Shown: positions 10,531-30,290 of the stretch, piece by piece
Position numbering within the stretch: the stretch's first letter is position 1
How the letters are laid out: every line of letters starts with the position of its first letter
DNA from: Symbiodinium sp. CCMP2592
Lineage: Eukaryota; Sar; Dinophyceae; Suessiales; Symbiodiniaceae
NCBI GenBank assembly: GCA_905221615.1
Contig: CAJNDT010002779.1
Span: 1,481,501-1,545,500 of the forward strand
Direction of reading: 5' to 3'
Length of the DNA: 64,000 bases
The notes under the pieces: model-generated
Seen by the model: the letters and a program-made list of their open reading frames with translations, nothing else
What the model was told of the DNA's origin: nothing
Databases searched by the model: none
Made by a program: the position numbers and the translations under genes

Positions 10531-10569
10531 GTTATCTCAATTCCTAGAAACACAGGTTCTACAAGTAAT

Positions 10570-10730
10570 TAAATGATGAAAATGATGACGATGAAAATGA
10601 TGATGACGATTACGGTGATGCTTGTTATGATGAAGATGGCGGTAGTGGTGGTGATGGTAATGATGACGATGATCATATGATGATGATGAAGAACATGATG
10701 ATGATGTTGTTGTTGATGATAGCAATGCTT
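10570..10730. repeat. ATG/GAT trinucleotide microsatellite
   Basis: GATGATGATGACGATGAAAATG-type repeat of about 160 bp. The His-rich and Ile-rich open frames over it are repeat artefacts. Confidence 0.9.
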
Positions 10731-10956
10731 CATGGTTGCACAAGTGCAGAAGAGCACATGTGGTGAATGCCAGAAGCTTGGAAATAACATGATAATTAAT
10801 CAAATATGATAGGAACTGATTAATTAATTAATGATGTTCCAAGATTCTGGCATTCGCTGCAAGTGCTTTGCTTCTGAAAGCTGTCAACAATCTGCCCGCT
10901 CCGCCACAGACAGGCAGCCTCAAGAAGAGGCCTTTGGGCCTCGCTTCAACAGGCTG

Positions 10957-10990
10957 TCACACACACACACACACTCACACTCACACTCAG
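10957..10990. repeat. CA microsatellite
   Basis: CACACACACACACACACTCACACTCACACTC. Confidence 0.9.
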
Positions 10991-11079
10991 ACAGACCAAC
11001 CGGAGCACTCAAACACAGACACCACTCACACACACTCACTGAGGAGGCAGACAGACAGCTGGAAGTGCTTCTTCGCTTC

Positions 11080-11116
11080 GCCGCCATGGGCGGCTGAGTG
11101 CCGCCATGGGCGGCGA
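11080..11116. repeat. Tandem near-palindrome GCCGCCATGGGCGGC
   Basis: GCCGCCATGGGCGGC occurs twice, separated by TGAGT. Each is one base short of a perfect palindrome. Function unknown. Confidence 0.6.
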
Positions 11117-11179
11117 GGAAGCCCACGACAAGGCGGGATCTTTTCTAAGACGGGCGTTAGTAATCCTTCAGACACAAAA

Positions 11180-11254
11180 ATGACGGGCCAGGGAATCGAA
11201 CCTCGGCACTATCCATTAAGAGTGTAGCACTACCCCCTCGGCTATCCTGTAGCA
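11180..11254 (-). repeat. tRNA-derived SINE-like element 1
   Basis: On the minus strand there is a polymerase III A-box-like TAGCCGAGGGGGTAG and a B-box GGTTCGATTCC, followed by CTGGCCCGTCATTTT. The acceptor ends do not pair, so it is not a working tRNA. The tail after the B box (GGCCCGTCATTTT) is shared with 22644-22724 and, diverged, with 16903-16977, which indicates a tRNA-headed SINE family. Confidence 0.6.
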
Positions 11255-11354
11255 TATCGAAGTAGTGCAATTCTGACCCCTAGCAGATTATCACGACCAC
11301 GATTCGCGGGCGCAAGGCCGAATGCAGTAATTACTGATAGCAAAGAACAGAGGA

Positions 11355-11910
11355 TTGTAGTACAAGCTTAGTACTGGAAGAGCCTCGTCTCGGATGCTGT
11401 CGGGATGATGTCGGTGCTAGAAGTGTCTCCTGTCCGATGCTGGCTGGATGGTGCTCAATTGTAGTACAAGCTTAGTACTGGAAGAGCCTCGTCTCGGATG
11501 CTGTCGGGATGATGTCGGTGCTAGAAGTGTCTCCTGTCCGATGCTGGCTGGATGGTGCTCAATTGTAGTACAAGCTTAGTACTGGAAGAGCCTCGTCTCG
11601 GATGCTGTCGGGATGATGTCGGTGCTAGAAGTGTCTCCTGTCCGATGCTGGCTGGATGGTGCTCAATTGTAGTACAAGCTTAGTACTGGAAGAGCCTCGT
11701 CTCGGATGCTGTCGGGATGATGTCGGTGCTAGAAGTGTCTCCTGTCCGATGCTGGCTGGATGGTGCTCAATTGTAGTACAAGCTTAGTACTGGAAGAGCC
11801 TCGTCTCGGATGCTGTCGGGATGATGTCGGTGCTAGAAGTGTCTCCTGTCCGATGCTGGCTGGATGGTGCTCAATTGTAGTACAAGCTTAGTACTGGAAG
11901 AGCCTCGTTT
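11355..11910 (+). repeat. 104-bp minisatellite array
   Basis: Five near-identical 104-bp units plus a partial sixth. Each starts TTGTAGTACAAGCTTAGTAC and includes GAGCCTCGTCTCGGATGCTG and GATGCTGGCTGGATGGTGCT. The unit shares its core with the 61-bp arrays further right. The core contains AGTAC-N7-GTACT, a small palindrome around a HindIII-like AAGCTT. The array stops about 55 bp before a good splice acceptor. Confidence 0.9.
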
Positions 11911-11932
11911 GGATGGTGCTGGCATGTTTCTT

Positions 11933-11963
11933 CTGATTGTTTCTTTTTTTCCCAAACGTGCAG
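11933..11963 (+). promoter_or_regulatory. Probable 3' splice acceptor
   Basis: GATTGTTTCTTTTTTTCCC is a strong pyrimidine tract followed by AAACGTGCAG and then an open coding-like frame. This is the best splice acceptor in the block and suggests that the 104-bp array lies in an upstream intron. The donor and any earlier exon are not identified. Confidence 0.45.
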
Positions 11964-12011
11964 GCCAAGCTGCGAGCCGCTTTGGAGAATGCTTTGGCCG
12001 AGCTTGACAAG
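11964..12011 (+). CDS. Probable short exon upstream of the transposase-protease gene
   Basis: This is 48 bases, 16 codons, reading AKLRAALENALAELDK, an amphipathic helix-like stretch. It follows the pyrimidine-rich acceptor at 11933-11963 and runs into stops about nine bases later (TGCTGATGA), so it must be spliced if real. Joining base 12011 to 12060 keeps the frame (phase 0) with the long frame downstream. I infer that it is part of the same gene; the true 5' end of that gene was not found. Confidence 0.4.
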
Positions 12012-12059
12012 GCGCAGGGGTGCTGATGAATGAATTGACCGAATTGCTCTAAACATCAG
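12012..12059 (+). other. Candidate 48-nt intron with GC-AG borders
   Basis: Begins GCGCAGGGGTG and ends AAACATCAG before GACGACGAG. It contains several in-frame stops (TGATGAATGAATTGA). GC donors are used by dinoflagellates, which fits the organism. 48 nt is short for an intron, so a frameshifted or decayed junction is the alternative. Confidence 0.35.
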
Positions 12060-13745
12060 GACGACGAGAGGGAAGCCAAAAGAAGGAAGACAGCCAAGAC
12101 AGTAGAGGTAGTTGACTTGAGCAAGGAAGAACCACAGGCAGTGGTTTGCAGGCAGAGCAGCCAAGACAGCCTAGACAGCAGCCAGACAGCTAGAGGAGTC
12201 AAGAGGCAGGCCAGCTTTCACACACCTTCGCCGAAGAAGCGTCTGTTCAGTCCTGACAGCAAGGGTGGAGACAGCCAGAGCCCAGGCAGCCAGAGCCCGG
12301 GCAGCCAGAGCCCAGACAGCAACCCTGTGCAAAAGAGAAAGATAGAACAGCTCAAAAAGACCTTAGGCCAAGGCAGTCCAGTCTACTACCGGCTAGACTA
12401 CCTTTGGGGCAAGGCAGCAGAGGCAGAGGCCAAGCCCGGCCTTTCGCCAGACACAGCTAGTGACAGACAGAAACAGCAGCAAGCTGAGAACATGCAAAAC
12501 CTGCAGCAGAAAGCCAGCCAAGCAGTGGAAAAGCTCGAACTGGAGCCAGCTCTTGGAGTTCTTAAAAAGAGACGGGGAGGCAGACCGCTAGGCAGTAAGC
12601 AGAAGACGAAAGCGGTGCCGCATCTTCGCAAGAAACGATGTGATGTGACAGCCAGAGGCAAGCTTTCCATGATGGAAGAGTTAGACAGAGCAGCTGTAAC
12701 TCACAAAAGCAAAACTGCAGCCAGGCAGCATGTCATGAGGCAGTATGGTGTGAGCAATTCTTTTTGCTTCAACCTGCAAAAAGACTATCACAGACAGAAA
12801 GTCACCAACTTTCTCGCCAGCACGGGGCGAGGACACAGTGCCAGACAGGCAGGCAGCCATTTGGGTCTCGTGCACCTCGTCAGCAAGTCAAATGGCCGAA
12901 GACTGCCTGACCCAGGCAAAGTGCTGGGTAGGCCAGACTTTCTCCTGCCAGTCTGGTCTGAGACCCGTGCTTGGGCCTTGAATGAGGAAGCCAGCCAGCA
13001 CGTCCTGACGAACGAAGACGTGCTGATGGACTTCCAAGAAAGGCTCGACAAAGCCATTGCAGTCAGGCAGGCAGAAAAGGAAAAGGGTCTTCTTGACCAG
13101 ACAGGTGAGAAGGAGCTGGCAGCCATGACGCAAAAGAAAGCCACGCTAGCCAGCAAGCCAAAGCAGAGGAGCAAGTACCAGATCCTGCTCCTGGCAAAGT
13201 GCGGTCTTCGAAACAGATCCTGCCAACAGACAGCCAACCTGAGCAAGGAGGATGAGAAAGCCAGGCTAGACTTGTCCTGGCGACTCTGGGACTTGCTTTT
13301 GGAACAGGCAGCCAGCAAGACACCACAGCCAGACTTGCCTGTAGCAAGCCCAGAGCAGTGGACGACAAAGCGAGCAGAGACAGCCATCACCATGTCAGAC
13401 CAAGTACCTGCTTGGCTCAAGCCAACGCCAGGGAAGGCGTTGACATCGGTGGTGCGCTTGAAGCTAGCCAGCGAGCAAAGCAAGGCCAGGCGAGAGAACA
13501 GGAAAGCCAGACAAACACAGCCAAAGGCCAAACCTGAGGCCAAAGCCAAGGCCGCACCTTGGCGGTTTTGTTGGGTGGATTCGAAGTGGACTTTCGGGTT
13601 TAGGGTTTCCTTAAACCCCAAACCCAAAAGCCAAAGCCTAAACCTTCATGCACCTTCATGCTTTCGAAACCAACCGAGGCACCGAGGCTGGCATGTGCTT
13701 CTCGAGCCCCAGGTGTGGCAGCAAGGTGGCGAGTCAGCTTGGTAG
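12060..13745 (+). CDS. pogo/Tigger-like transposase, N-terminal part (AT-hook, HTH, first catalytic Asp)
   Basis: The frame is open from 12039 to the stop at 13743-13745; coding character fades after about 13590. There is no convincing ATG; TTG at 12117 is only a numbering origin. Counting from there: Ser/Gln-rich basic start (1-70); AT-hook-like RRGGRPLGSK near 151-160; helix-turn-helix-like region 182-228 (KLSMMEELDRAAVTHKSKTA, then YGVSNSFCFNLQKDY) resembling the N-terminal DNA-binding part of pogo/CENP-B-type proteins; a second possible DNA-binding region near 250-310 (LPVWSETRAWALNEE, LTNEDVLMDF); then MSDQVPAWLKP with Asp428, which fits the first Asp of DDE_1 nucleases (family pattern N-x-D-[EQ]-x-P). 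The rest of the nuclease is in another frame from about 13658. Role by family: DNA binding and cut-and-paste transposition at TA. Whether it is an active element, decayed or domesticated is unknown. Codons are rich in CAG, GCC and AGC. Confidence 0.6.
   Translation, partial: DDEREAKRRKTAKTVEVVDLSKEEPQAVVCRQSSQDSLDSSQTARGVKRQASFHTPSPKKRLFSPDSKGGDSQSPGSQSPGSQSPDSNPVQKRKIEQLKKTLGQGSPVYYRLDYLWGKAAEAEAKPGLSPDTASDRQKQQQAENMQNLQQKASQAVEKLELEPALGVLKKRRGGRPLGSKQKTKAVPHLRKKRCDVTARGKLSMMEELDRAAVTHKSKTAARQHVMRQYGVSNSFCFNLQKDYHRQKVTNFLASTGRGHSARQAGSHLGLVHLVSKSNGRRLPDPGKVLGRPDFLLPVWSETRAWALNEEASQHVLTNEDVLMDFQERLDKAIAVRQAEKEKGLLDQTGEKELAAMTQKKATLASKPKQRSKYQILLLAKCGLRNRSCQQTANLSKEDEKARLDLSWRLWDLLLEQAASKTPQPDLPVASPEQWTTKRAETAITMSDQVPAWLKPTPGKALTSVVRLKLASEQSKARRENRKARQTQPKAKPEAKAKAAPWRFCWVDSKWTFGFRVSLNPKPKSQSLNLHAPSCFRNQPRHRGWHVLLEPQVWQQGGESAW
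13591..13657 (+). other. Telomere-like insert at the frame break (probable intron or part of one)
   Basis: GGGTTTAGGGTTTCC followed by TTAAACCCCAAACCC forms an inverted telomere-like pair exactly where the reading frame shifts. The coding composition (CAG/GCC-rich) is lost here and returns after about 13660. It lies between the first and second Asp motifs of the transposase. The exact splice sites cannot be fixed from sequence alone. Confidence 0.5.
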
Positions 13746-16144
13746 CTAGACAGGCAGTGCAGAACTTCTTTGCGCCAGACAGACAGCCAGTGGGTGTCGT
13801 TATGCCCACGATACTTGTCACATACGGCAAACACTGCAGACTTGAAAACATCAGCCAGGAAGGCACGTGGATCAAGTCCGAGTGCTTCCAGGTAGGCAGC
13901 CAGACAGTCAGGAGAAGGGCAGGCCAGCGAGTGCCAGGACAGGTCATGCGCACTTGGCGCAAACTGCGACAGACCCAGCCACACCTGTTTGATGGCAGTG
14001 TCAGGGTGTGGTGCCAGCCAGCCGCAGTGGTAGATAGCGTGATTTACAGATGGCAGCTAGAGCTCGAGTCAGAAGAGCACAGCCAGGCAGTGCAGCTCGT
14101 CGATATGTTCGGCGGAGCATGGACGACGGAGTCCATGCACGCCGCTGCACTCCTGCAGCGAGCTCAGACAGGCATTGCAGCCGGGTGCACCGGCTTGACC
14201 CAGGTGACAGACATCGGGTTCGCCCAGCCAGCCAAGGCAGCTCTCAAAAGGTGGCAGGAAGACTTGAAGCAGCGCATGCGAGAGAAAGCCAGACAGCAAA
14301 AGGTGCAGTGCACCTATAAGACAGGCCCGGCAGACATTCTGGAGGCAGCTAGACAGATGCACGCCAGGATGGTGCAGTTGAATGAGACAGAGAAGACAGT
14401 CCTTCGCTGCATGCGGCAGGGAGGCTGGTTCCACTTCCGTCCAGACAGTGAAGGCAGGCTTCAGGACTGTGGCAGCCAGGAATGGTGTCTGGACTTCCCT
14501 GAAGGCAATGCCAAGCTAGGCAGCGACCACCTCAGAGACAGGTCTCGTTGGGTGGACAAGACAGGCAAGGTGCTTCCGTGGACAGAGGCAGACAGCAAGA
14601 CATTTGATGAATCCAATGCATTCGAACCCGAGTCTACGTACCTGCTTGGCCAGACAGACATACACTTGAGCTTCCGAGCGAAGCCCAATCTCCTTGCTCA
14701 GTCAGAAAGAGAGCTCAGAGAGGTCATTCTGAGACAGGTCCACCCGAACGAGAGGAGACGGCTTTTCCAGGAACAGGTGGACCAGACAACCAGCCAGACA
14801 AAGACAGACAGGCAGCAGAGAAAGGAAAAAAGGATCAAGAACGCGAAGCAAGACAGAAAGAGGCGCAAACTTTTGAAAGAATGGAGACAGCAGCAAGCCA
14901 GCAAGACAAAGAAGCAGGCTCTGCAGTCTGTCGTGCCCAAAGTGGGCCAGAAAAAGAAGAAGAAGGCAGACAGAAAGAAGCCCAGCCAGGTCAAGAAGCA
15001 GCAAAAGAAAGACCAGGCGAAGAAGGCTCAAAGACGGGCAGCCGAGCCAGGCAGTGAGGGACACTTGCATGGCAAGCAAGCTCGAGTGATCGGTGACCTG
15101 GCTCCGCTGCTGGGCAAGATCGTGGTGTGTGGAAAGCAGACAGACAGCCAAGTCCTGATCAATGCTGACGGAGTTCATGAATGGGTCAGCCACACAGACA
15201 TTACGCTGGACGTCAGAGACAGACAGTTTCCGCTGGTTTTGGATTTGGAGTCTTTCCCCAGTGCTGCAGCCAGCGAGGAAGCGGCAGCCAGTGCAAAAGA
15301 TTTGCGGCTTTACAAGCACGAAGACCTGCTGACAGACAGCCAGCTCGAAGCTGGCATCAGGGAGATGGCATACCGACTCTCCCATGGAGCAGAGCCAGCC
15401 AGCCTGTGTGTTTTGCGGCCAGCAGAGGCCAAGCAACTTATCCAGACACATACACTCAAGGCAGCAGCAAAGACAGCCATGGACAGCCAGGCTGGTTTGG
15501 TCTTGGCAGTCGTGCAAAGCCAGCCTCCGAGACACTGGTCCTTGCTGGTGGTCGAGACAGTCAGAGACAGCCCCGAAGCGAAGGTCAGGTACTATGACAC
15601 GTTGCCCGGTGAGGCAGCCTACAAGGAAGCCAGTGCAGTTTTGAAGGTGCTGCTGCAGACAGCCAAGAAACAGGCCCAGCCTTTGCCTGCGCCAGTCAGT
15701 CTGCTCAGACAGACAGATGGCTTCTCGTGCGGCCTCTGGGTCTTGCTGTATATGGAGCAGGAGTGGCGGCGGTGGATGGGTGAGGCCCCGCAGCCACTTG
15801 TGAAAGACCTGCCAGCCAGAAGCAGCCAGCTGAACCGCTGGATTCAGCTGCTGCTGCGAGGCAAAGAGCTAGCCAGACAGAAAGAGAGTCAGCAGCAAGA
15901 CAGCCAGACAGCAGGAGACACCATCGTTTTTGGCTGTGCCCACTGCAGTTTTGCTCTGAGTGGCTGCCTTCGCTGCAACAGAACGCAGTTTTTGAAGTAT
16001 ATGAGTAACCAGGCACACAAAAAGGCAGAGGAGGCAGCAAAGGCACCCGAGGCCCAGGCCAAGACCAAGGCCAAGGCCAAAGCAAAGGTGAAGGCTCTTG
16101 GAAAGCCAGGCAGCTCAGGAGCCATCTCGTGCACAACTAATTAA
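13658..16144 (+). CDS. pogo-like transposase C-terminal part fused to Ulp1/SENP-type (C48) protease
   Basis: 828 codons in the frame open from 13604; the ATG at 13658 is for numbering, since this is probably a downstream exon. Residues 140-200 match the end of a DDE_1 nuclease: QLVDMFGGAW with Asp149 and QVTDIGFAQPAKAALKRW with Asp185, 35 residues apart. Residues ~375-470 are a Lys/Arg/Gln-rich coiled-coil and likely nuclear signal. Residues ~481-518 (LLGKIVVCGK...HEWVSHTDI) may be a small beta barrel. Residues ~555-720 form a Ulp1-like peptidase with the full catalytic set: His626 (RHWSLLVVE), Asp647 (RYYDTL), Gln685 and Cys691 (RQTDGFSCGLWVLLYMEQEW). A CxxC-x6-CxxC knuckle follows (Cys760, 763, 770, 773), then an Ala/Lys tail. 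The family removes SUMO or similar modifiers. Pairing with a pogo-type nuclease is unusual. The stop lies inside a TAATTAA motif. Confidence 0.7.
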   Translation: MLSKPTEAPRLACASRAPGVAARWRVSLVARQAVQNFFAPDRQPVGVVMPTILVTYGKHCRLENISQEGTWIKSECFQVGSQTVRRRAGQRVPGQVMRTWRKLRQTQPHLFDGSVRVWCQPAAVVDSVIYRWQLELESEEHSQAVQLVDMFGGAWTTESMHAAALLQRAQTGIAAGCTGLTQVTDIGFAQPAKAALKRWQEDLKQRMREKARQQKVQCTYKTGPADILEAARQMHARMVQLNETEKTVLRCMRQGGWFHFRPDSEGRLQDCGSQEWCLDFPEGNAKLGSDHLRDRSRWVDKTGKVLPWTEADSKTFDESNAFEPESTYLLGQTDIHLSFRAKPNLLAQSERELREVILRQVHPNERRRLFQEQVDQTTSQTKTDRQQRKEKRIKNAKQDRKRRKLLKEWRQQQASKTKKQALQSVVPKVGQKKKKKADRKKPSQVKKQQKKDQAKKAQRRAAEPGSEGHLHGKQARVIGDLAPLLGKIVVCGKQTDSQVLINADGVHEWVSHTDITLDVRDRQFPLVLDLESFPSAAASEEAAASAKDLRLYKHEDLLTDSQLEAGIREMAYRLSHGAEPASLCVLRPAEAKQLIQTHTLKAAAKTAMDSQAGLVLAVVQSQPPRHWSLLVVETVRDSPEAKVRYYDTLPGEAAYKEASAVLKVLLQTAKKQAQPLPAPVSLLRQTDGFSCGLWVLLYMEQEWRRWMGEAPQPLVKDLPARSSQLNRWIQLLLRGKELARQKESQQQDSQTAGDTIVFGCAHCSFALSGCLRCNRTQFLKYMSNQAHKKAEEAAKAPEAQAKTKAKAKAKVKALGKPGSSGAISCTTN

Positions 16145-16203
16145 ATAATGAATTACATCTCGAGTTTTACATTAATTAATTACAGTAATTACTTCTTCGT
16201 ACA

Positions 16204-16428
16204 GGATGTGCCTCGCTTCGCATGCTGGCTGGATTGTGCCAAATCGTAGTACAAGCTTAGTACTGGATGTGCCTCGCTTCGCATGCTGGCTGGATTGTGC
16301 CACATCGTAGTACAAGCTTAGTACTGGATGTGCCTCGCTTCGCATGCTGGCTGGATTGTGCCAAATCGTAGTACAAGCTTAGTACTGGATGTGCCTCGCT
16401 TCGCATGCTGGCTGGATTGTGCCAAATA
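16204..16428 (+). repeat. 61-bp satellite array, short (4 units)
   Basis: Four units, each with GGATGTGCCTCGCTTCGCAT, GCTGGCTGGATTGTGCCA and GTAGTACAAGCTTAGTACT; starts at 16204, 16265, 16326 and 16387. The period is not a multiple of three, so the open frames across it are not genes. It lies 60 bp after the end of the transposase-protease frame and runs straight into the 11-bp array. Confidence 0.92.
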
Positions 16429-16783
16429 ACACCTCCACAACACCTCCACAACACCTCCACAACACTTCCACAATACCTCCACAACACTTCCACAACACCT
16501 CCACAACACCTCCACAACACCTCCACAACACTCCACAACACCTCCACAACACTTCCACAACACTCCACACAACACTTCCACAACCTCCACAACACTTCCA
16601 CAACACCTCCACAACACCTCCACAACACCTCCACAACACTTCCACAACACTTCCACAACACCTCCACAACACTTCCACAACACCTCCACAACACTTCCAC
16701 AACACCTCCACAACACCTCCACAACACCTCCACAACACCTCCACAACACTTCCACAACACCTACCACAACACCCAAATCAGCA
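16429..16783 (+). repeat. 11-bp minisatellite array (CCTCCACAACA)
   Basis: About 32 units of CCTCCACAACA and CTTCCACAACA in irregular order. It ends CACAACACCCAAATCAGCAA. The same array with the same exit sequence is at 22047-22412. The WRCCGGVVEVL-like and HNTSTTPPQ-like frames over it are repeat artefacts. Confidence 0.92.
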
Positions 16784-16902
16784 ATGAGCTTGTCTGCAGC
16801 ACTCTCGACGCAGAGTGCCCAGGGCTTTTGGTCACCCAAAGTCTCGGTGCTCAAAGCTTTTGGTCACACAAAGTCTCGATTCCAGGCGGGGAAAGAGCTT
16901 AA

Positions 16903-16977
16903 ATGACGAGGCCGGGGATTGAACCGCGGACCTATTCCAATGAGAGTCGTCCGCCCACCCCTTAGGCTATCAGAGGA
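16903..16977 (-). repeat. tRNA-derived SINE-like element 2
   Basis: Minus strand: A-box-like TAGCCTAAGGGGTGGG and B-box GGTTCAATCCCCGG, followed by CCTCGTCATTT. This resembles elements 1 and 3 in the GTCATTT tail. Acceptor ends do not pair. Confidence 0.55.
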
Positions 16978-17162
16978 TTGGAACGGAGAGGGCGATGGAC
17001 CATCTTCAGTCACGGAGAGATCACAATTGTCGCAGCCCGGTGGGGTCTCCGGTGAGTGTTCCGAGTCGCCACCCCCTTTTGCTGAGCCTCCCAGTGCCGA
17101 TGCCCAGAAATTCTGGGAATTGCCATGTGTAAGGTCGGTCGCCAAAAACCTTGCCGGCAGGG

Positions 17163-17240
17163 TTTTCATGGTCTAGTGGTTAACGTCGTGCCTGCCAGGA
17201 GCTGGAAGGCTGCCCGACAGATCCTGGGCAGCATGGACGA
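17163..17240 (+). repeat. tRNA-like sequence (A-box head only)
   Basis: AGGGTTTTCATGGTCTAGTGGTTAACGTCGTGCC has the start of a tRNA (TGGTCTAGTGGTTAA) and CCTGCCAGG where the anticodon loop would be. No matching B box or acceptor stem was found. The same head (GGGTTTTCATAGCTCAGTGG) is seen in reverse near 23160-23200. Confidence 0.45.
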
Positions 17241-17347
17241 GCGACAAGGGCATCTTCGGAAATAGGGTGGATTGTGCTTTGGAGTAATTATTGGAGGTGC
17301 TTTCCGAAGGATGCTGCATGGACTCTAGAATCATACACTGAACAGAG

Positions 17348-17423
17348 GACCCCATGGTCTAATGGATAAGGCGCTCTGTGGGTAAACCACGGAAAGATGG
17401 GTGGTTCAAGTCCCCCTGGGGTT
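17348..17423 (+). tRNA. tRNA-like gene or pseudogene with intact acceptor stem
   Basis: 76 bases. GACCCCA and TGGGGTT pair as an acceptor stem with one G-T end. TGGTCTAATGGATAAGGC gives a normal D arm, and GTTCAAGTCC is a good B box. The anticodon arm is odd: the region between D and T arms is about four bases too long, and the best helix (CTGTG/CACGG) leaves loop GGTAAAC without the usual T33. The T stem has one mismatch. Arg- or Lys-type tRNAs have this D arm, but no anticodon can be assigned; probably a pseudogene. Confidence 0.45.
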
Positions 17424-17436
17424 GTTCTCATGCCAA

Positions 17437-17462
17437 GTCGCAGTACAAGCTTAATTAGTACT
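17437..17462 (+). repeat. Solo satellite core carrying a TAATTA change
   Basis: GCAGTACAAGCTTAATTAGTACTGG is the satellite core GTACAAGCTTAGTACTGG with TTAG changed to TTAATTAG. Confidence 0.7.
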
Positions 17463-17493
17463 GGAACCGCATCCTTCCCAACCCTGTGCGGCA

Positions 17494-17572
17494 GGGTCCC
17501 GGTAGCGTAGTGGTTAGTACATCCTCCCTTGACCCTACCAAGCAGGGAGTCCCCAGCGGGCCACTAAGAGGC
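17494..17572 (+). repeat. tRNA-like sequence
   Basis: GGTCCCGGTAGCGTAGTGGTTAGTACATCC has a clear A-box (TAGCGTAGTGGTTAG). Downstream CCAAGCAGGGAGTCCCC lacks a normal T loop. No acceptor pairing. Probably a decayed SINE head. Confidence 0.45.
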
Positions 17573-17595
17573 CAACGCGGCCGGGCCATTTCTGA

Positions 17596-17665
17596 CCATT
17601 GGAGGTGTTAGCCGCTGCTCTTTGTAGTTTTATTGTAGGCTAAAGTTCAGGGCTGTAGGCAACCC
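17596..17665. repeat. Solo right arm of long-arm foldback family O
   Basis: CATTGGAGGTGTTAGCCGCTGCTC and TAGGCTAAAGTTCAGGGC match the right arm of the complete element at 27044-27206. The left arm is absent. Confidence 0.65.
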
Positions 17666-17672
17666 TAAGCCC

Positions 17673-18230
17673 TTGCTTGGAAGCTTGTCCTGGCTGACTG
17701 GAAGCTGCCTTGAAGTGGACTCTGTTCTGAAGAAGCTGCCCATGGAGAACGACCTGATGTGGCGGCCACTCATCTGTGCAAGAGCAAAAAGCACTCACAG
17801 AGCCGGATCCGGCAGACCATGTGGACACTGGCAAATAATCAGTGACAGGGAGACTGGCGACAACTGCAACTCACCGAGAACTCCCCTCGGGCTGCGTCTT
17901 GTTTGGGTGGTTTCTACTGGCTGATGCCTGCTGATGCTGGATGAACTGGCTGGCTGCAACTTGCTCATATTCTCAGTACTGGAAGTGTCTCCTGTCCGAC
18001 TGCAGTGAGGCTTGCCCTGTGGCTTCCTCCAATGGTGGCCGCTGGACCCTGCAAGTCAAAACCAATTTTGGCTCAGTGGTTAAGAAGTGGGCTTGTTGCC
18101 CGAGCCAGAGATCAGAAGAATTACCTTTACTGGTAAATCAGCGCAAACCGCACGGCAGTAGGTTTTCGATGGTCTTCTGCTTAAGACTGGCGGGGCCTGC
18201 TTGCCTTGTTTCGCATGCTGGCTGGATTGT
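17673..18230. other. No gene seen; tRNA-like head near 18066
   Basis: No convincing gene. At 18062-18115, AATTTTGGCTCAGTGGTTAAG is an A-box-like tRNA head without a B box. The remaining sequence has no recognised domain in any frame. Confidence 0.4.
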
Positions 18231-22412: not shown

Positions 22413-22509
22413 AATCAGCAATGAAGCTTGGCTCAAAGAATAAACCCCTGTGGTTTGCGCTGTTCTTAACAGGCGAAGGAATTCTCCTGATCTTTCTGGG
22501 CATCATGGG

Positions 22510-22548: not shown

Positions 22549-22643
22549 GAGGCCTCGGCCAATTCCCTTTTGGATCTGGCAAATCCTGTCTAGCTCGCTT
22601 GAGTCCCTTTGATGAACCTCAATCCGCATCGGGAAAACCAAAA

Positions 22644-22724
22644 TGACGGGCCCGGGAATCGAGCCCGCATACAATACATGAACCTGGCCGGAGTCGACGC
22701 CTTGCCCACTGAGCTACGGTGTCC
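22644..22724 (-). repeat. tRNA-derived SINE-like element 3
   Basis: Minus strand: GGACACCGTAGCTCAGTGGG is an excellent tRNA start with A-box. B-box GGGCTCGATTCCCGG is followed by GCCCGTCATTTT, the same tail as element 1. The acceptor ends do not pair. Any tRNA function is unlikely. Confidence 0.6.
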
Positions 22725-22865
22725 ATGTTATTCCAAGTCTCAAGGGCATATGATGGCTGGATTGCTGGGATGATGGTGAAAACTCGTAATTGCTGGAAGT
22801 GCAGCGTCTTTCAGGCTGGCTGGAATTTGCCAAATGAATCAAATTAATTAATTACGGTTTCTAGA

Positions 22866-22905
22866 CACCTTGCAAAATTTTTTTGCATCCATTTCGCCAA
22901 GCATG
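22866..22905. repeat. Short dispersed repeat, copy 1
   Basis: CACCTTGCAAAATTTTTTTGCATCC followed by TTCGCCAAGCAT. Repeated at 23336-23378. Contains the palindrome-like TGCAAAATTTTTTTGCA. Confidence 0.65.
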
Positions 22906-22969
22906 CTCCTCTAGCACACTGGTGGAAGGCTGGGTGTTGATACCACATGCCTCCACAATGGATGCTTTG

Positions 22970-23093
22970 GTTCAGGGGCCCTCCGCTGTGATCTTCGCTG
23001 TTGCCTCAGGGTCCCACCGAGTGATTGGTCACTCCCCCTGCAATACCGAGGAATAAACCTCACACCCTGAGGCACCTAAAAGGCTTGTGGATC
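22970..23093. repeat. Dispersed repeat of about 115 bp, copy 1
   Basis: CAGGGGCCCTCCGCTGTGATCTTC, GCCTCAGGGTCCCACCG and CCTGAGGCACC occur in order. The same order is at 26297-26399. In the reverse direction the second copy carries a B-box-like GCTCAATTCCC, so it may be SINE-related. Confidence 0.55.
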
Positions 23094-23129
23094 TCGTCCG
23101 GGTCGTCCTTGACCCGGTCTTCGTAGTCA

Positions 23130-23205
23130 TCCTTGTAGCCTGACAAGAGCCAGATCTTTAACCACTGAGCTATGAAAACCCTGGGGAGGTGGATTGAAGA
23201 ATCAT
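23130..23205 (-). repeat. tRNA-like head
   Basis: Minus strand CCAGGGTTTTCATAGCTCAGTGGTTAAAGATC has a clear A-box. No B box within normal distance. Confidence 0.4.
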
Positions 23206-23227
23206 TTGAACAAACATGCTGCCCCCG

Positions 23228-23280
23228 TGACCAGGGTGGGTTTGGCTTAGTGGTTAGAGCAACGTCTCTCGACAGGACGG
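23228..23280 (+). repeat. tRNA-like head, copy 1
   Basis: GTGACCAGGGTGGGTTTGGCTTAGTGGTTAGAGC; the same string with two changes is at 27566-27601. No B box follows. Confidence 0.45.
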
Positions 23281-23335
23281 ATGCTGGCTGGATTGTGCTG
23301 GATTGTAGTACAAGCCTCAAGGCCTAGGGTTTTTA

Positions 23336-23440
23336 AACCCCTTGCAAATTTTTTTTTGCATCGAATTCGCCAAGCATAATTACAAGCTTAGTGCATGCTG
23401 GCTGGATTGTGCCAAATCGTAGTACAAGCATAGGAATCAA
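23336..23440 (+). repeat. Short repeat copy 2 joined to a solo satellite unit with TAATTA
   Basis: CCTTGCAAATTTTTTTTTGC followed by TTCGCCAAGCATAATTACAAGCTTAG. The satellite core normally reads TAGTACAAGCTTAG, so the TA of TACAAG here is TAATTA. Confidence 0.65.
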
Positions 23441-24380
23441 TCCGGTAGGTGGAACTCCTCGAGCAGATCCTGTACACCTTACAGGAGATGCAGGCAGGCA
23501 GATCATCAATAATTAGCTCGCCTGAATTTTGACAGAATCCAGAGGTGGAACTTGGGCGCCTCGGCCAGAAGTTGGCCTGCATGGAAGGCAGACAGGCCCG
23601 CTCAAGCTTTGGCTCCGACGCATACCAGCCTCTATCGGCAATGGGGTAAAATATGATAATTTCATGCAGTGGGAGCGATAGATCTTTTGTTCCTTTGTAA
23701 ACAGGACAGACAGCTCTGCGACCCCATGGATGTGGAGCGCCATGCGGCCTCGGCAGAGAGCCACGCAGAAAGACAGGTAGTCAGACTGAACACGGTCCGG
23801 GCAAGGCTGCGGCAAGCAGGCCCACCGGTGTCGTGGGCCTTGCTGTGCTGGTGCCTGTGAGACAGGCAGCCAGCAAGACAGAAAGACAGACAGGCTGTCA
23901 GAACAGTACGTTAACCTTCAACCCTAAGCCCTGAACCTTAAACCTGAAACCCTAAACCCCAGACTCAGAAAGCCAGCCAGATCTGTCATCTGTCGATCTA
24001 TAGTCAGTGAGGCAGGCTAGGACAGCCAAGCTCACCAGCGAGACGGGTAACGGAAAAGTAGGGTTTGATTCCGGAGAGGGAGCCTGATGAACTAATTCGA
24101 TGCTGCGACAGTAATTAATCGAAATCAGTAATTACGAGAGGAACACTTCGTTCAGATTCTTGGTTAATTTTTGTGGCTTGCTGAAAAGCTAAGACCACGA
24201 AGCTATCATCCTGAGACCTGCAGCAGAAAGGCCCAAGCAGCCAGAGCCCCCAGACGGACAGCACACCGGCAGTGACGTGAAGGCCGGGCTATCTACGGGC
24301 TCGGAGAATCCAGGCAAGTAATTAGATCAAAAGCCTTCAACCCCGGGCTTGCAGGCCATGGAACGCCTGCCAGAAGAGAC
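23441..24380. other. CAG-rich stretch, no convincing gene
   Basis: A frame at 23669-23860 on the plus strand (LLFLCKQDRQLCDPMDVERH...) is short and matches nothing I know. Around 23920-23965 there is a short telomere-like run (CCTGAAACCCTAAACCCC). The rest is NCAG-rich. Confidence 0.4.
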
Positions 24381-24447
24381 CGCCAGCCAGGCAGCCAGCC
24401 AGGCAGACAGGTCGATCTCAAATGACTCCAATAATTAATTAATTAGT

Positions 24448-24525
24448 CTCCATTGTAGTTGCTTTTGTTGGTTTAATTAACAAGATTTAGAAATTAGGTA
24501 TTCCCAAAAAGGAACTGCAATGGAG
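24448..24525. repeat. MITE-like foldback element, family P copy 2
   Basis: CTCCATTGTAGTTGCTTTTG / GGAACTGCAATGGAG. Internal GGTTTAATTAAC where the copy at 6143 has GGTTTAACC. Confidence 0.75.
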
Positions 24526-24558
24526 ACTAATTAATTAATTAATTAGGTAATGGTCGAC

Positions 24559-24752
24559 AGGGATAGTTGAGGGCATTCGTATTTAACTGTCAAAGGTGAA
24601 GGCTCTTGGATTTGTTAAAGACGGACTAATTACTGCGAAAGCATTTGCAAAGGATGTTTTCATTGATCAAGAACGAAAGTTAGGGGATCGAAGACGATCA
24701 GATACCGTCCTAGTTTTAACCGTAAACTCTGCCAACTAGAGATTGGAGGTCG
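24559..24752 (+). pseudogene. Small-subunit (18S) rRNA fragment, copy 1
   Basis: GGGCATTCGTATTTAACTGTC, TTGGATTTGTTAAAGACGG, GCATTTGCAAAGGATGTTTTC, GAACGAAAGTTAGGGGATCG, AGACGATCAGATACCGTCC and AGAGATTGGAGGTCG are in 18S order from its central region. Changes from the conserved sequence (GTTTTAACCGTAAAC, GCCAACTAG, and an inserted AATT in GGACTAATTACTGCG) show it is not functional. Confidence 0.9.
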
Positions 24753-24840
24753 AAACCGAGCCAGCTGCTGAGCCGGCAGTCAGCCAGGCAGCCAGCCAGG
24801 CAGACAGGTCGATCTCAAATGACTCCAATAATTAATTAGT

Positions 24841-24917
24841 CTCCATTGTAGTTGCTTTTGTTGGTTTAATTAACCAGATTTAGAAATTAGGTATTCCCAA
24901 AAAGGAACTGCAATGGA
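24841..24917. repeat. MITE-like foldback element, family P copy 3
   Basis: Duplicate of the element at 24448-24525, with GGTTTAATTAACC inside. Confidence 0.75.
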
Positions 24918-24947
24918 GACTAATTAATTAATTAGGTAATGGTCGAC

Positions 24948-25228
24948 AGGGATAGTTGAGGGCATTCGTATTTAACTGTCAAAGGTGAAGGCTTTTGGAT
25001 TTGTTAAAGACGGACTAATTACTGCGAAAGCATTTGCAAAGGATGTTTTCATTGATCAAGAACGAAAGTTAGGGGATCGAAGACGATCAGATACCGTCCT
25101 AGTTTTAACCGTAAACTCTGCCAACTAGAGATTGGAGGTCGACACCCAGACGACTCCTTCAGCACCTTATGAGAAATCAAAGTCTGTAAGGATTGACAGA
25201 TTGATAGCTCTTTCTTGATTCTATGGGT
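24948..25228 (+). pseudogene. Small-subunit (18S) rRNA fragment, copy 2, extended and internally deleted
   Basis: Repeats copy 1, then continues with ACGACTCCTTCAGCACC, ATGAGAAATCAAAGTCT, and jumps to GTAAGGATTGACAGATTGAT and AGCTCTTTCTTGATTCTATG. In a normal 18S gene the last two blocks lie well downstream of the first two, so a large internal piece is missing. A pseudogene of rDNA origin. Confidence 0.9.
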
Positions 25229-25257
25229 GCAACAAAAAAGGGTCTGGAGTGGGTTCA

Positions 25258-25420
25258 GGGTCGTTTCGGTGGTTGGAAGGCAAGGGCTCCGAGGCAGTCA
25301 GGCAGTGAGTGCGCAAGGCTTCAGGGTTTTGGGGTTTTGGTTCAGGGTTGTTTCGGTCGTTGGAAGGCAGTAGGGGCTCCGAGGCAGTCAGGCAGTGAGT
25401 GAGTGCGCCAGGCTTCAGGG
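25258..25420 (+). repeat. 88-bp minisatellite, two units
   Basis: GTTGGAAGGC, GGGCTCCGAGGCAGTCAGGC, AGTGAGTGCGC and AGGCTTCAGGG occur twice. Related to the 79-bp array at 20768-20998. Confidence 0.75.
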
Positions 25421-25449
25421 TTCTTTTTTTTTTTGTGTGTTTTTCGTGC

Positions 25450-25625
25450 TGGATTGGAGTACTATGACTGGATTGCGCTGGATTGTAGTCTGGCTGCTGG
25501 CTGGATTGTGCTGGATTGTAGTACCTGCTGGCTGGATTGTGCTGGATTGTAGTACGGCATTAGTACTGGAAGTCGGATGCTGGCAGGATGGTGCTTTCTC
25601 GTAGTACAACCTTAGTACTGGAAGT
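25450..25625 (+). repeat. Irregular cluster of satellite half-units
   Basis: GGCTGGATTGTGCTGGATTGTAGTAC-type pieces about every 30-35 bp, then GGCATTAGTACTGGAAG and CGTAGTACAACCTTAGTACTGG. Looks like a seed or decay stage of the 61/104-bp satellites. Confidence 0.7.
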
Positions 25626-25794
25626 GGTGGTTGTATTTGGTTTTCTTGCAAGCTGGCAGGATCGAAGGCGGGACAGCCTCGCGCCCCACAGAAGCAAGCA
25701 GAGAAGCAGAAACAGAAGACGGCACAAGGCACAACAACGAGCGGCAAAAGGAAAAAAACAAATGAATTCCTTACATTGCCAACTTCCCCCGGCG

Positions 25795-25866
25795 GTGTGG
25801 TGGTGGCACAGCTGTGTAAGGGTGTGTCCCTGCACAGAGGTCCGGGTTCGAGTCCCGGTCGGGGTG
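25795..25866 (+). repeat. tRNA-like sequence with enlarged anticodon loop
   Basis: D-arm-like TGTGGTGGTGGCACA, anticodon-stem-like CTGTG/CACAG enclosing a 16-base loop (TAAGGGTGTGTCCCTG), and a perfect T arm CCGGGTTCGAGTCCCGG. The acceptor ends (CCCCCGG at the left, TCGGGGT at the right) pair at six of seven positions. The 16-base loop could hold a small insertion. Possible tRNA pseudogene. Confidence 0.45.
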
Positions 25867-25939
25867 TTTGGGCGATGCCATTGTGTTGACCCTTTATACG
25901 GAAAGTTCCAGAATGGATGAGTGTCTTCCCCGTAGCTTG

Positions 25940-26035
25940 ACCCAGGGTCTTGATGGTGTAGTGGTACATCACCTGGCTTCGTGACATTAGTACTGGATGT
26001 GCCTCGTTTCGATCCCCAGGGGTTTTGCCAGGCTC
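25940..26035 (+). repeat. Chimera of a tRNA-like 5' half and a satellite unit
   Basis: TTGATGGTGTAGTGGTACATCACCTGG is a good tRNA 5' half. It is followed by GACATTAGTACTGGATGTGCCTCG (the satellite sequence) and then GTTTCGATCCCCAGGGG, which is B-box-like where the normal satellite has GCTTCGCATGCTGG. Confidence 0.5.
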
Positions 26036-26051
26036 TGGAACGGGCTGGAGC

Positions 26052-26196
26052 AATTAATTACTGGATGTGGCCGGATTCTGGCTGAATTGTGCCACGAGCC
26101 CGAAAACATCGGAAGCTGTGCAAAATGCCATTTGCCAATCGTTGTGCCACGAGCCCGCAAACATCGGAAGCTTTGCAAAATGCCAATTGCCAAAAA
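26052..26196 (+). repeat. Solo satellite fragment and ~60-bp tandem duplication
   Basis: AATTAATTACTGGATGTGGC is a satellite piece with TA(ATTA). Then TTGTGCCACGAGCCCGAAAA, CATCGGAAGCT and TGCAAAATGCCA occur twice. Confidence 0.65.
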
Positions 26197-26296
26197 AATT
26201 TTTTCCTCCAGCTGCTCCCGGCCGCCAGAGGTTGATCCCATGCTCCTTGAAGCCGGTGCCAACACCAGCTTGGAGCCGAATGATGGGATCAAGTTA

Positions 26297-26399
26297 TTGC
26301 AGGGCCCTCCACGTGATCTTCACAAGCCTCAGGGCCCACCGGGTGGGAATTGAGCATCCACCCCCCTGCTCGAGGAAAACCTCGCTCCCTGAGGCACCA
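26297..26399. repeat. Dispersed repeat of about 115 bp, copy 2
   Basis: CAGGGCCCTCCACGTGATCTTC through CCTGAGGCACC, as at 22970-23093. Confidence 0.55.
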
Positions 26400-27040
26400 G
26401 TTTTGCACACCCTGGAGTCGCTTTGCCGCTCTGGATTGTTGTACAACCTTTGTGCTGCCTTGTATCGGGAGCTTGCAGCATAATGCTTTTCTCGTAGAAC
26501 AATCTTAATTAGTACTGGGACTGGCTGGATTGTGCTGGATTGTAGTTCCGCATCAGTTGGTAATTAATTAATTACAAGCACTGCTGCCGATTCCTGCAGC
26601 AGCAAGCGAAAAAGAGCTTGCAAATCATTCTTCCGATGCAAATGAAATCCAATGCTCACAATGATTTGATGCAGCCACCAGCTCCGATTCTACCCAATGG
26701 CCCGGAGGCACATCGTATGACTCGAGGTGCAGACAGCAAAGGTGCAGGGGCTCAATCCCCGGGGGTGTCATGGCAAGACGCAGGCCCGGTCGGGATCCGG
26801 GGAGTGGATGGAGTCGCCAGTCCCGATGCATGGTGAGGAGCTCGCTGCTCAATTGCAGGGCCACTGCCAGATTGCTGGTGGCAGGTATTCTGAGTCTCCT
26901 GTCGAACTCGAGACTCGAGCCTTCAATCGTATGTCCAGCGACGGCTCAGGTTCCAACTTGCCGGTGAACTCAGTGTTGTGGTGTGTGGCTGTCAAGCTGC
27001 CAGTCAAGCTTCCAGGCTTCAGATGGGTTTAAGGTTAGGG
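26400..27040. other. No gene seen; satellite and tRNA-like scraps
   Basis: At about 26493-26555, CAATCTTAATTAGTACTGGG and GGCTGGATTGTGCTGGATTG are satellite pieces, again with TTAATTAG. At 26755, GGGGCTCAATCCCCGGGGGTGTCATGG looks like a B box followed by a GTCAT tail. The open frames are unremarkable. Confidence 0.4.
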
Positions 27041-27043
27041 TGT

Positions 27044-27206
27044 GCCCTCCCTGAACTTTAGCCTATACCAACAAAAAACGGAGCAGTAGCTAACACCTCC
27101 AATGCTGGCAAGTGTTCGACTGACACAGGTGTCCGACTTTGCACCATTGGAGGTGTTAGCCACTGCTCCGTCTTTTTGTTGGTGTAGGCTAAAGTTCAGG
27201 GCAGGG
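27044..27206. repeat. Long-arm foldback element, family O
   Basis: 163 bp. CCCTCCCTGAACTTTAGCCT and the following ~45 bp are inverted at the right end (GGCTAAAGTTCAGGGCAGGG), giving arms of about 60 bp with roughly 90 percent matching around a short centre. The right arm alone is present at 17596-17665. Confidence 0.85.
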
Positions 27207-27700
27207 AAAACCCTAATTTAACTCTTCTGAAGTGCAGCCTGCAAGCTTGGATGGAAGACAGTGGACAACTCTTTCATCTGGATGACACCGGCTGCTGTGA
27301 ACAGAGAATCCAGCTTACCGGATTGGATGATGTACAACATTGGCGACAACAGCGATCAAGAAATGCAGGAGCTGAAGGCATACTTCTGCCAGAGCACTGA
27401 AATCGGGAATGGCGAGAACATCGACTCACCGGATCCCGCCGGGCCGCGACTTTTGCAAAAGAAATCCTAACCAAGATGCCATTGGAGATAATTACTGATT
27501 AGCCCTTGTCGGGTCAACTCAACATGTACCGTGTGGCAGCTACACATGGGGTCATTGGGTTCGCCCTGTGACTAGGGTGGGTTTAGCTTAGTGGTTAGAG
27601 CGCTGGCTCAAGTCACTTACGCGGCAGCTGAACCGCGAGGGAAAAGCCGAGATGAAGCTCCAAAGGGTTTTCTTGCATGTCGGCCTCCAATCGATTGTGC
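27207..27700. other. No convincing gene; tRNA-like head at 27560-27612
   Basis: The plus-strand frame at 27261-27470 (MDNSFIWMTPAAVNRESSLP...) is short and unrecognised. GTGACTAGGGTGGGTTTAGC followed by TTAGTGGTTAGAGCGCTGG is the second copy of the tRNA-like head at 23228. Confidence 0.4.
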
Positions 27701-27705
27701 CAAGA

Positions 27706-29453
27706 TTGTGCCAAATCGTAGAGCAAGCTAGTACTGCATGTGCCTCGCTTCGCATGCTGGCTGGATTGTGCCAAATTGTAGTACAAGCTTAGTACTGGAT
27801 GTACCTCGCTTCGCATGCTGGCTGGATTGTGCCACATCGTAGTACAAGCTTAGTACTGGATGTGCCTCGCTTCGCATGCTGGCTGGATTGTCGCAGCTTA
27901 GTACTGGGCTCGGCAGCCACATCGTAGTACAAGCTTAGTACTGGATGTGCCTCGCTTCGCATGCTGGCTGGATTGTGCCACATCGTAGTACAAGCTTAGT
28001 ACTGGATGTGCCTCGCTTCGCATGCTGGCTGGATTGTGCCAAATCGTAGTACAAGCTTAGTACTGGATGTGCCTCGCTTCGCATGCTGGCTGGATTGTGC
28101 CACATCGTAGTACAAGCTTAGTACTGGATGTGCCTCGCTTCGCATGCTGGCTGGATTGTGCCAAATCGTAGTACAAGCTTAGTACTGGATGTGCCTCGCT
28201 TCGCATGCTGGCTGGATTGTGCCAAATCGTAGTACAAGCTTAGTACTGGATGTGCCTCGCTTCGCATGCTGGCTGGATTGTGCCAAATCGTAGTACAAGC
28301 TTAGTACTGGATGTGCCTCGCTTCGCATCTGGCTGGATTGTGCGTACAAGCTTAGTACTGGATGCCTTCGCATTGTGCGTAGTACAAGCGTAGCTTCGCA
28401 TGCTGGCTGGATTGTGCCACTTAGTACGCAAGCTAGTGGCTGGACATGCTGGCCATCGTAGTACAAGCTTAGTACTGGATGTGCCTCGCTTCGCATGCTG
28501 GCTGGATTGTGCCACATCGTAGTACAAGCTTAGTACTGGATGTGCCTCGCTTCGCATGCTGGCTGGATTGTGCCAAATCGTAGTACAAGCTTAGTACTGG
28601 ATGTGCCTCGCTTCGCATGCTGGCTGGATTGTGCCAATCGTAGTACAAGCTTAGTACTGGATGTGCCTCGCTTCGCATGCTGGCTGGATTGTGCCAAATC
28701 GTAGTACAAGCTTAGTACTGGATGTGCCTCGCTTCGCATGCTGGCTGGATTGTGCCACATCGTAGTACAAGCTTAGTACTGGATGTGCCTCGCTTCGCAT
28801 GCTGGCTGGATTGTGCCAAATCGTAGTACAAGCTTAGTACTGGATGTGCCTCGCTTCGCATGCTGGCTGGATTGTGCCACATCGTAGTACAAGCTTAGTA
28901 CTGGATGTGCCTCGCTTCGCATGCTGGCTGGATTGTGCCAAATCGTAGTACAAGCTTAGTACTGGATGTGCCTCGCTTCGCATGCTGGCTGGATTGTGCC
29001 AAATCGTAGTACAAGCTTAGTACTGGATGTGCCTCGCTTCGCATGCTGGCTGGATTGTGCCAAATCGTAGTACAAGCTTAGTACTGGATGTGCCTCGCTT
29101 CGCATGCTGGCTGGATTGTGCCAAATCGTAGTACAAGCTTAGTACTGGATGTGCCTCGCTTCGCATGCTGGCTGGATTGTGCCAAATCGTAGTACAAGCT
29201 TAGTACTGGATGTGCCTCGCTTCGCATGCTGGCTGGATTGTGCCACATCGTAGTACAAGCTTAGTACTGGATGTGCCTCGCTTCGCATGCTGGCTGGATT
29301 GTGCCAAATCGTAGTACAAGCTTAGTACTGGATGTGCCTCGCTTCGCATGCTGGCTGGATTGTGCCAAATCGTAGTACAAGCTTAGTACTGGATGTGCCT
29401 CGTTTCGCATGCTGGCTGAATTGTGCTAAGCTGGCTGGATTGTGCCAAATCGA
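27706..29453 (+). repeat. 61-bp satellite array, about 28 units
   Basis: Same unit as at 16204 and 21161. Two disturbed zones (27888-27912 and about 28325-28460) contain truncated and scrambled units (GGCTGGATTGTGCGTACAAG, TTAGTACGCAAGCTAGTGGC). No 11-bp array follows; it ends at a TTAATTAATTAATTAATT run. Confidence 0.95.
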
Positions 29454-29455
29454 CG

Positions 29456-29478
29456 CAATTAATTAATTAATTAATTGG
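29456..29478 (+). repeat. TA(ATTA)n run
   Basis: CAATTAATTAATTAATTAA then TTGGG; the longest run of the TAATTA series in the block. Confidence 0.85.
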
Positions 29479-29490
29479 GTTGAAAGCTTA

Positions 29491-29784
29491 GGTAAGCCAG
29501 CTGCTGACAGCCATGAACAGCCAGACAGCGGCTCTCCAGGCACACAGCCAGAAACTTCCAATCTTTCAACAAGACAGACAGACATCAGCCAGGTAGTGGC
29601 AGACAGGTTGGCCACGCAGACGGATGTCTTGACAGACATCCAGGCAGAACAGCTCAAACCACCAAAACCCAACTCGACCCTGGCACCTGCGAAGGAAGAG
29701 CTGCACATGGTGGGCAAGGCAGTCATCTGTGCTGAGAGACGCCAGGCGGGGGGAATCACAGCCAAGGGAACGAGCTGGGGATAA
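29491..29784 (+). CDS. Possible exon or gene remnant, low-complexity NCAG-rich frame
   Basis: 98 codons from 29491 (after CTTAG, a possible acceptor) to the TAA at 29782-29784. The frame is open back to 29467. It reads Ser/Thr/Gln-rich then VVADRLATQTDVLTDIQAEQ and EELHMVGKAVICAERRQAGG. There is no ATG near the start. Composition resembles the transposase-protease gene, so it could be an exon or remnant of a related element. No domain is recognised. Confidence 0.3.
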   Translation, partial: GKPAADSHEQPDSGSPGTQPETSNLSTRQTDISQVVADRLATQTDVLTDIQAEQLKPPKPNSTLAPAKEELHMVGKAVICAERRQAGGITAKGTSWG

Positions 29785-29789
29785 TCAGC

Positions 29790-29825
<36 letters not shown>

Positions 29826-30290
29826 ACTTTGTGCGATGACTTAATTAATTAATTACCACTAATTAATAAACCATGAGCAGGACACCTGGATGGCGTTCTC
29901 CGCCGACGTCGGCCGCCACAGTGAGCAGGCTGAGACAGGCAGAGAGAAGAGACAGGTGTGGCTGCAGGCAGCACTTGCCAGAGCCAGACAGGCAGGTCCG
30001 CCCTTCAGCTGGGCACTTTTGTGCTGCTGCGCAGACTAATGTCTGCCAGACAGACAGATAGGCATGCCAGGTAGCTAGTTCGCAGACCCCTTAACCTTAA
30101 ACCCTAGTTTCTAAGACAGACAGGCAGTACAAACCCGCAGTGCACACAGGCAGCCTATCTGCAAGATCTATATAGCGAGGTAGGCTAGGCCAGCCAAGCT
30201 CGCAAAGACAGCAGCTGCACACAGGCAGACAGACAGCTGCCCAAAAAGACCGACGACTCAGCCAGCCAGCCTAAACCCTAAACCCCTTAA
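29785..30290. other. NCAG-rich stretch, no gene seen
   Basis: CAGACAGGCAG-type sequence with a TTAATTAATTAATTACCAC run at 29842. Short telomere-like scraps near 30088 and 30270. Confidence 0.45.

Follow-up and report, generated by a model that had tools for sequence, protein, structure and literature searches.

Structure and copies of the element

We analysed 64,000 nucleotides of the genome of Symbiodinium sp. CCMP2592 (contig CAJNDT010002779.1, positions 1,481,501 to 1,545,500), referred to here as the window. Its central block (10440–30400, plus strand) is one entire copy of a 19,961-bp DNA transposon with TA on both flanks, inside which TA dinucleotides have in many places become TAATTA. 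An initial annotation of the window had read these sites as footprints left one after another by a TA-targeting element, an idea for which exact ATTA gains at TA provide good support. The account we favour, with some reserve, is that the TAATTA sites were left by excision of members of the element family itself; that the preceding insertions were mostly self-directed is a less certain part of it.

BLAST comparison of the window with the neighbouring region revealed a second, inverted copy 81 kb away (C2779:1592966–1612306) which matches about 10438–30402. The two longest aligned stretches are 98.9% (10.5 kb) and 97.7% (6.4 kb) identical, and the sequences past both TAs are unrelated. In this alignment the TA target-site duplication (10438–10439 on the left, 30401–30402 on the right) is present at both ends of both copies. 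Both termini read TA-ATCCC(C/T)TCCCC... and ...GGGGGAGGGGAT-TA. The terminal inverted repeats (10440–10463, plus strand; 30377–30400, minus strand) are 24 bp long, each beginning with AT on its own strand, and are imperfect, with 20 of 24 bases identical in the window copy. The initial annotation had suggested looking for elements with TA on either side and with terminal bases such that AT would be left; the block itself, TA-ATCCC...GGGAT-TA, is such an element.

When the right end was searched against the genome (1.098 Gb, 5,383 contigs), 58 matches were obtained (40 scored of 148 candidates). Fourteen, including the window, form a first family of near full length with 93–100% identity. A second subfamily, of which roughly 1.2 kb per copy and 9.1 kb of contig C613 were covered, is present in pieces with about 72–81% identity. 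Internal pieces and the window itself aside, the matches that reach the end break off at query positions 922–927, one at 934. TA follows 21 of the 22 aligned right ends, the exception (L043) having TG, and the flanks past it differ except in three flank-sharing pairs (L041/L042 and two others), each of which may be a single locus. At the right end L033 a CTGG duplication was seen.

Relatives are found on many contigs: 120 exact right subterminal 20-mers were counted genome-wide, and so were 205 left ends in which no more than one base is mismatched. Among the matches listed (100 of the 120 right and 100 of the 205 left ends, with single positions on C5218, C1528 and C2520 added by hand for checking distances), there are 50 same-strand end pairs no more than 40 kb apart, 36 of them spaced 4–6 kb and seven 13.9–20.6 kb. 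The block is therefore a large DNA transposon with shorter relatives. L050, L051 and L053 are 4–6 kb members of the family; the pieces covered show the same right end in two of them and a minisatellite interior in the third. The left flank of the window copy (10338–10437) is a repeat of about 100 bp with 1,244 first-look candidates in the genome. The 40 scored copies are 94–100% identical, and in all 40 the repeat stops within about one base of the element's TA.

Abundance and distribution of TAATTA

TAATTA occurs 64 times in the element, as against a mean of 1.4 and a maximum of 5 in 200 dinucleotide shuffles, in agreement with the excess first noticed in the central block. The remaining 44,035 bases of the window contain it 26 times (shuffle mean 15, maximum 28). 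The middle dinucleotide of TA-NN-TA words is AT in 64 of 86 cases in the element versus 26 of 241 in the rest of the window. In twenty 10-kb samples of this genome (195,000 bases readable and 5,000 N) there are 61 TAATTA words: 11 in a part of region L012 that belongs to the second element copy, and 50 outside it. The earlier impression that the change is largely confined to 10.5–30.3 kb holds within the window and not beyond it, the block being a repeated element that is present elsewhere.

The element carries 43 separate TA(ATTA)n runs, with n = 1 in 29, n = 2 in eight, n = 3 in five and n = 4 in one (24528–24545). Longer runs had been announced with two to five units, and the range is really two to four; the positions given in the initial annotation are right to within 11 bases. 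The TA(ATTA)2 run at 18571–18580 has one unit both in the paralog and in C613. At 29842–29855 the window has TA(ATTA)3, where two arrays separated by 25 bp are seen in older copies; one array and the 25-bp spacer have been lost from the window's subgroup at 29842–29865, as expected from recombination between scars.

The runs are unevenly placed. None of the 71 TAs in the reading-frame regions (12012–16135 and 19141–19938) carries one, versus 43 of 366 TAs in element DNA outside coding regions and arrays (p = 7e-4). Because four-base insertions break reading frames, this avoidance is most simply read as purifying selection on copies that transpose.

ATTA gains between element copies

Between the window copy and its paralog, 33 of the 43 runs agree. 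The ten that differ comprise two counting effects between neighbouring runs, one run at a 35-bp difference, one 0-to-1 change (29860) and six unit changes. C613 is 1.6% diverged from the window over 7.4 kb; nine of 16 runs agree and four differ by counting effects, while two are one unit shorter in C613 and the run at 18430 is missing from it, next to a changed base.

The 22 aligned right ends revealed six 0-to-1 insertions, each exactly ATTA and each at a TA without a prior ATTA array. In the eight ends of subfamily 2, ATTA has been gained at GTCGC-TA-CAACTT (GTCGCTACAACTT) in one, at GCTGCCT-TA-AGG (GCTGCCTTAAGG) in two and at CATCGTAG-TA-CAAGC (CATCGTAGTACAAG) in seven; in TATAACAGC it stands at the second TA in two ends and at the first TA in one. 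The site GGCTGTATAACAGC is unmodified in four of these ends; two others have TATAATTAACAGC, one has TAATTATAACAGC and the last has TTTAACAGC, which amounts to two separate insertions at neighbouring TAs. In the first family, CCAC-TA-ATAAACC is seen as CCACTAATAAACC in five ends and as CCACTAATTAATAAACC in eight of the 13 ends keeping the site; the eight are the window's subgroup, with the scar at 29860–29865, and one further end has a deletion at this place.

Distinct 4-nt indels were compared in alignments of at least 60 columns at 70% identity or more. ATTA at TA accounts for 15 of the 47 found between element copies and for 0 of the 71 found between non-element repeats (p = 2e-7). The non-element set comprised 246 kb and left out L020 (half N), L001–L004 and those stretches of L012, L027 and L028 that belong to the element. 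The remaining 32 indels from the element copies are diverse. Five of the 15 lie at a bare TA, and this subset alone still differs from the non-element repeats (p = 0.009).

The other ten of the 15 are unit changes in existing arrays, as are six of the ten differing runs between window and paralog. Both could come from slippage, a replication error which expands or contracts ATTA arrays, and ordinary ATTA arrays exist in this genome too: at L001:1394–1620 lies a microsatellite densely packed with ATTA that shows no BLAST similarity to the window. Slippage probably adds to the longer arrays and is a likely contributor for n of at least 2. As the sole cause it is contradicted by the 0-to-1 gains at TAs without neighbouring ATTA, as well as by the satellite data below, where insert length is nearly fixed at four in the satellite and free in an outside repeat, and where a non-TA satellite site has one insertion, of one base; we regard it as very unlikely. 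An ATTA microsatellite which changes only by whole units in existing arrays is ruled out by the same gains at bare TA. A piggyBac element (TTAA target, seamless excision) was also considered and rejected, as the flanks share TA only and most 0-to-1 scars lie at TAs outside TTAA.

Scars in sequences of known unmodified form

The initial annotation had relied on places where the unmodified sequence is known. Two of its three kinds of example proved right. A small-subunit (SSU) rRNA-derived fragment (24574–25191, plus strand; Rfam RF01960), which is a tandem duplicate with a 389-bp period (repeat 24384–25146), has ATTA scars at 24627 and 25016, and in the Rfam alignment the second copy has an extra auua, relative to the consensus, in the conserved motif before CUGCGAAAGC. 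By eye, an inverted repeat adjoins this piece. Satellite cores are scarred at 17452–17457 (core CTTAGTACTGG), at 26506–26511 (a second, satellite-like core) and, adjoining core ACAAGCTTAG, at 23377–23382, while 695 exact uninterrupted satellite 24-mers occur in the genome. The third example, a miniature inverted-repeat transposable element called family P, has to be given up: the sequences near 6172 and 24472/24867 have only a few letters in common and their flanks do not match, 24472 reading GGTTTAATTAACA.

A genome-wide scan of the satellite agrees with the copy comparison in showing exact ATTA insertions at unmodified TA. At TA site 1 (TACAAGCTTA^GTACTGGA), 24 of 26 insertions of 1–12 nt are exactly ATTA. 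Eighteen of these are followed by ACCGC, as is the scar at 17452–17457, and were taken as one inherited site; the other six lie elsewhere and possibly share ancestry among themselves. The seven insertions at TA site 2 comprise four ATTA, one ATTAATTA (double), one GTA and one A.

As an outside control we used the high-copy repeat adjoining the element's left end (the 40 scored copies mentioned above). Its 21 insertions at a TA range from 1 to 11 nt: nine are single bases, three are of 2 nt, one is of 3 nt, four are of 4 nt (one being ATTA) and four are longer. With the inherited site counted once, ATTA makes up 7 of 9 insertions in the satellite versus 1 of 21 in the control repeat (p = 1e-4). 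The near-lock on ATTA therefore belongs to the element. The uninterrupted satellite 24-mers lie mostly on contigs with family ends (100 listed of 695), and the satellite is therefore largely part of the element.

By itself the scar does not identify its maker, and some other, unseen TA-inserting element with AT ends might have produced the scars and favoured this block by chance. The block itself has exactly the required ends, and 26 of the 29 scarred satellite places lie on the same contig as a known family end and no more than 25 kb from it, although this proximity has to be read with the satellite being largely an element part. Such an outside maker appears highly improbable. Errors of assembly or consensus were considered too. 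The paralog contains a 100-N gap, and C853:3927–24675 shares its left flank with the window copy and its right flank with C5007:423394 (L031 and L036), which is either recombination between elements or a misjoin, so that some joins through the element may be false. The same insertions recur on many contigs (18 places for one site) with fixed letters at TA, and we give an artefact of this sort almost no credence.

Origin of the scars

TA duplication and terminal inverted repeats, both present here, are features of IS630-Tc1-mariner-pogo elements, and the internal TA-AT-TA scars would fit a footprint of 2–3 nt. The footprints of Tc1 and Tc3 likewise consist of TA, two or three terminal bases and TA. 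Sleeping Beauty leaves the same type of product at vacated sites, in two versions with CAG or CTG between the TAs (PMC3952818); AT ends as found here would give a single version. ISY100, which targets and duplicates TA and has inverted repeats, cuts exactly at its 3' ends and two bases inside its 5' ends, and the vacated vector ligates to the palindromic TA-NN-TA product TATATA (PMC2170065). TAATTA would be its counterpart. If the transposase of the present element cut in the same way, both sides of the vacated TA would carry a 5'-AT-3' overhang. Because AT pairs with itself, such ends could be joined without trimming, and the site would then read TA-AT-TA. This product has two TAs and would be open to repeated attack, giving TA(ATTA)n, while selection would remove copies with damaged reading frames.

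The present element differs from ISY100 in being 20 kb long, in carrying satellites and rRNA pieces and in having its scars inside; its mode of cutting is taken over from the ISY100 model, its transposase is recognised by no profile, and it has an extra, weak Ulp1-like part.

Footprint chemistry would explain the letters, the length and the serial growth of the scars; it would not by itself explain why they sit in element DNA, which is the new question raised here. The scars are strongly enriched in element DNA, and the search for occupied sites found none, which leads us to suspect that the insertions were mostly self-directed. Autointegration, the attack of an excised element on its own target sites, is described elsewhere as self-destructive; in Sleeping Beauty it can yield inversion circles in which both ends and the TA duplications are kept (PMC3952818). 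Perhaps an excised element attacked its own TA in the inversion form and both ends were cut free again, which would rescue the linear element with one extra ATTA as a heritable scar. A string model of autointegration and re-excision returned the element with TAATTA, and a second round gave TA(ATTA)2.

The same scars could have been made in trans, by other members of the family, either the 4–6 kb non-autonomous ones or full-length ones, which inserted at a TA and left again. The scar chemistry would be that of self-attack, and shorter relatives do exist, as the prevalence of the 4–6 kb spacing among the listed end pairs indicates. Against this, none of the seven longest end pairs encloses another family end on either strand, among the matches listed. 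A family end starting with ATCCC was not found at satellite TA site 1, versus 24 scars there, except for one 15-mer match (C4893), which was rejected for lack of satellite context; a reversed control pattern likewise gave one match. Insertion in trans would also need a strong preference for element DNA, given that the rest of the window stays near its shuffled TAATTA count (26 versus a mean of 15). We consider this route the less probable one, with a real though minor chance of being correct.

Several observations weigh against self-inflicted footprints. The joined flanks of the window copy were searched as a vacated donor or empty site, and none of the 40 scored matches spanned both; all lie in query positions 1–111, which is the left flank. 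Re-excision from an inversion circle needs ends paired in direct orientation, which mariner-type enzymes may disfavour. The satellite and short-repeat arrays of the element have runs at 0 of 218 TAs, for which array homogenisation is assumed. Short pieces of three 4–6 kb relatives, with 37, 37 and 9 TAs, contain no scar beyond the shared subterminal TAATTA, these pieces being tandem repeats or TA-poor. The ten unit changes among the 15 ATTA indels may be slippage, as mentioned, and two of the 26 insertions at satellite site 1 (both single bases) and two of the seven at site 2 are other than ATTA. One ATTA insertion lies in the outside repeat (C5310), so that the scars are not strictly confined to the element. 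For the transposase candidate, no transposase match was found in searches of Pfam (E up to 10), PDB and viral contigs, and its single-sequence fold is of low confidence (mean pLDDT 40).

In spite of these points we continue to prefer self-made footprints for the element family. A more specific proposal is survivable autointegration, in which the self-complementary terminal dinucleotide would let the element attack its own TAs, be recut and reseal losslessly, each failed jump adding one ATTA. This is tentative, and we would put its chances short of even. Were it true, the element's non-coding DNA would keep a continuous record of its own transposition attempts, and the scar count would serve as an activity clock.

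Cut-and-paste footprints are normally read at host sites; here they lie inside a transposon, with a length and sequence predicted from its ends. No description of footprints inside a transposon was found in the titles and abstract openings of the listed literature on TA footprints, autointegration, dinoflagellate pogo/mariner MITEs and Symbiodiniaceae inverted-repeat transposons (10 of 322 records for the last), and no paper turned up that combines autointegration with re-excision scars, which does not prove its absence. If the scars are self-inflicted, an event called suicidal for other transposons would have become a heritable record, which would help to explain how a large element survives autointegration. 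A general test would follow, namely that TA transposons of this kind carry internal scars spelling their own terminal bases.

Reading frames and internal repeats

Three long open reading frames are found on the plus strand of the element. ORF1 (12117–13745, 542 residues) has no profile match above cut-off, and ORF3 (19093–19938, 281 residues) has no profile match; TAATTA is absent inside both. In ORF2 (13658–16144, 828 residues) TAATTA begins at 16138, at the stop codon.

ORF2 is the transposase candidate, and a weak Ulp1 (C48) protease-like C-terminal part (14600–16141) shares its frame. Its Pfam matches are weak and below cut-off (Peptidase_C48, E 0.06–0.07; Acetyltransf_6, E 0.05), and a PDB search gave XopD over the protease-like part (E 0.012). 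The pogo superfamily is a group of IS630-Tc1-mariner elements (described for Passer, PMC9976928), and no Pfam match links the present element to it. The block had been said to carry a pogo-like transposase frame, and no profile confirms this. DDE-like motifs can be picked out of ORF2 by eye, and they may resemble those of pogo enzymes. A protease-like part is not known as a feature of pogo elements.

Among the internal repeats are a 61-bp satellite array (21165–22047, plus strand; others at 16195–16427 and 27704–29426) and an array of 104-bp units (11354–11915), with TA(ATTA)n absent inside both. CAGACAG-type tetramers, which were considered as a further type of footprint, fill reading frames that are intact. 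The words CAGACAG (62 on the plus strand versus 0 on the other) and CAGGCAG (46 versus 2) are strongly strand-biased over 10440–30400, in coding and non-coding parts alike.

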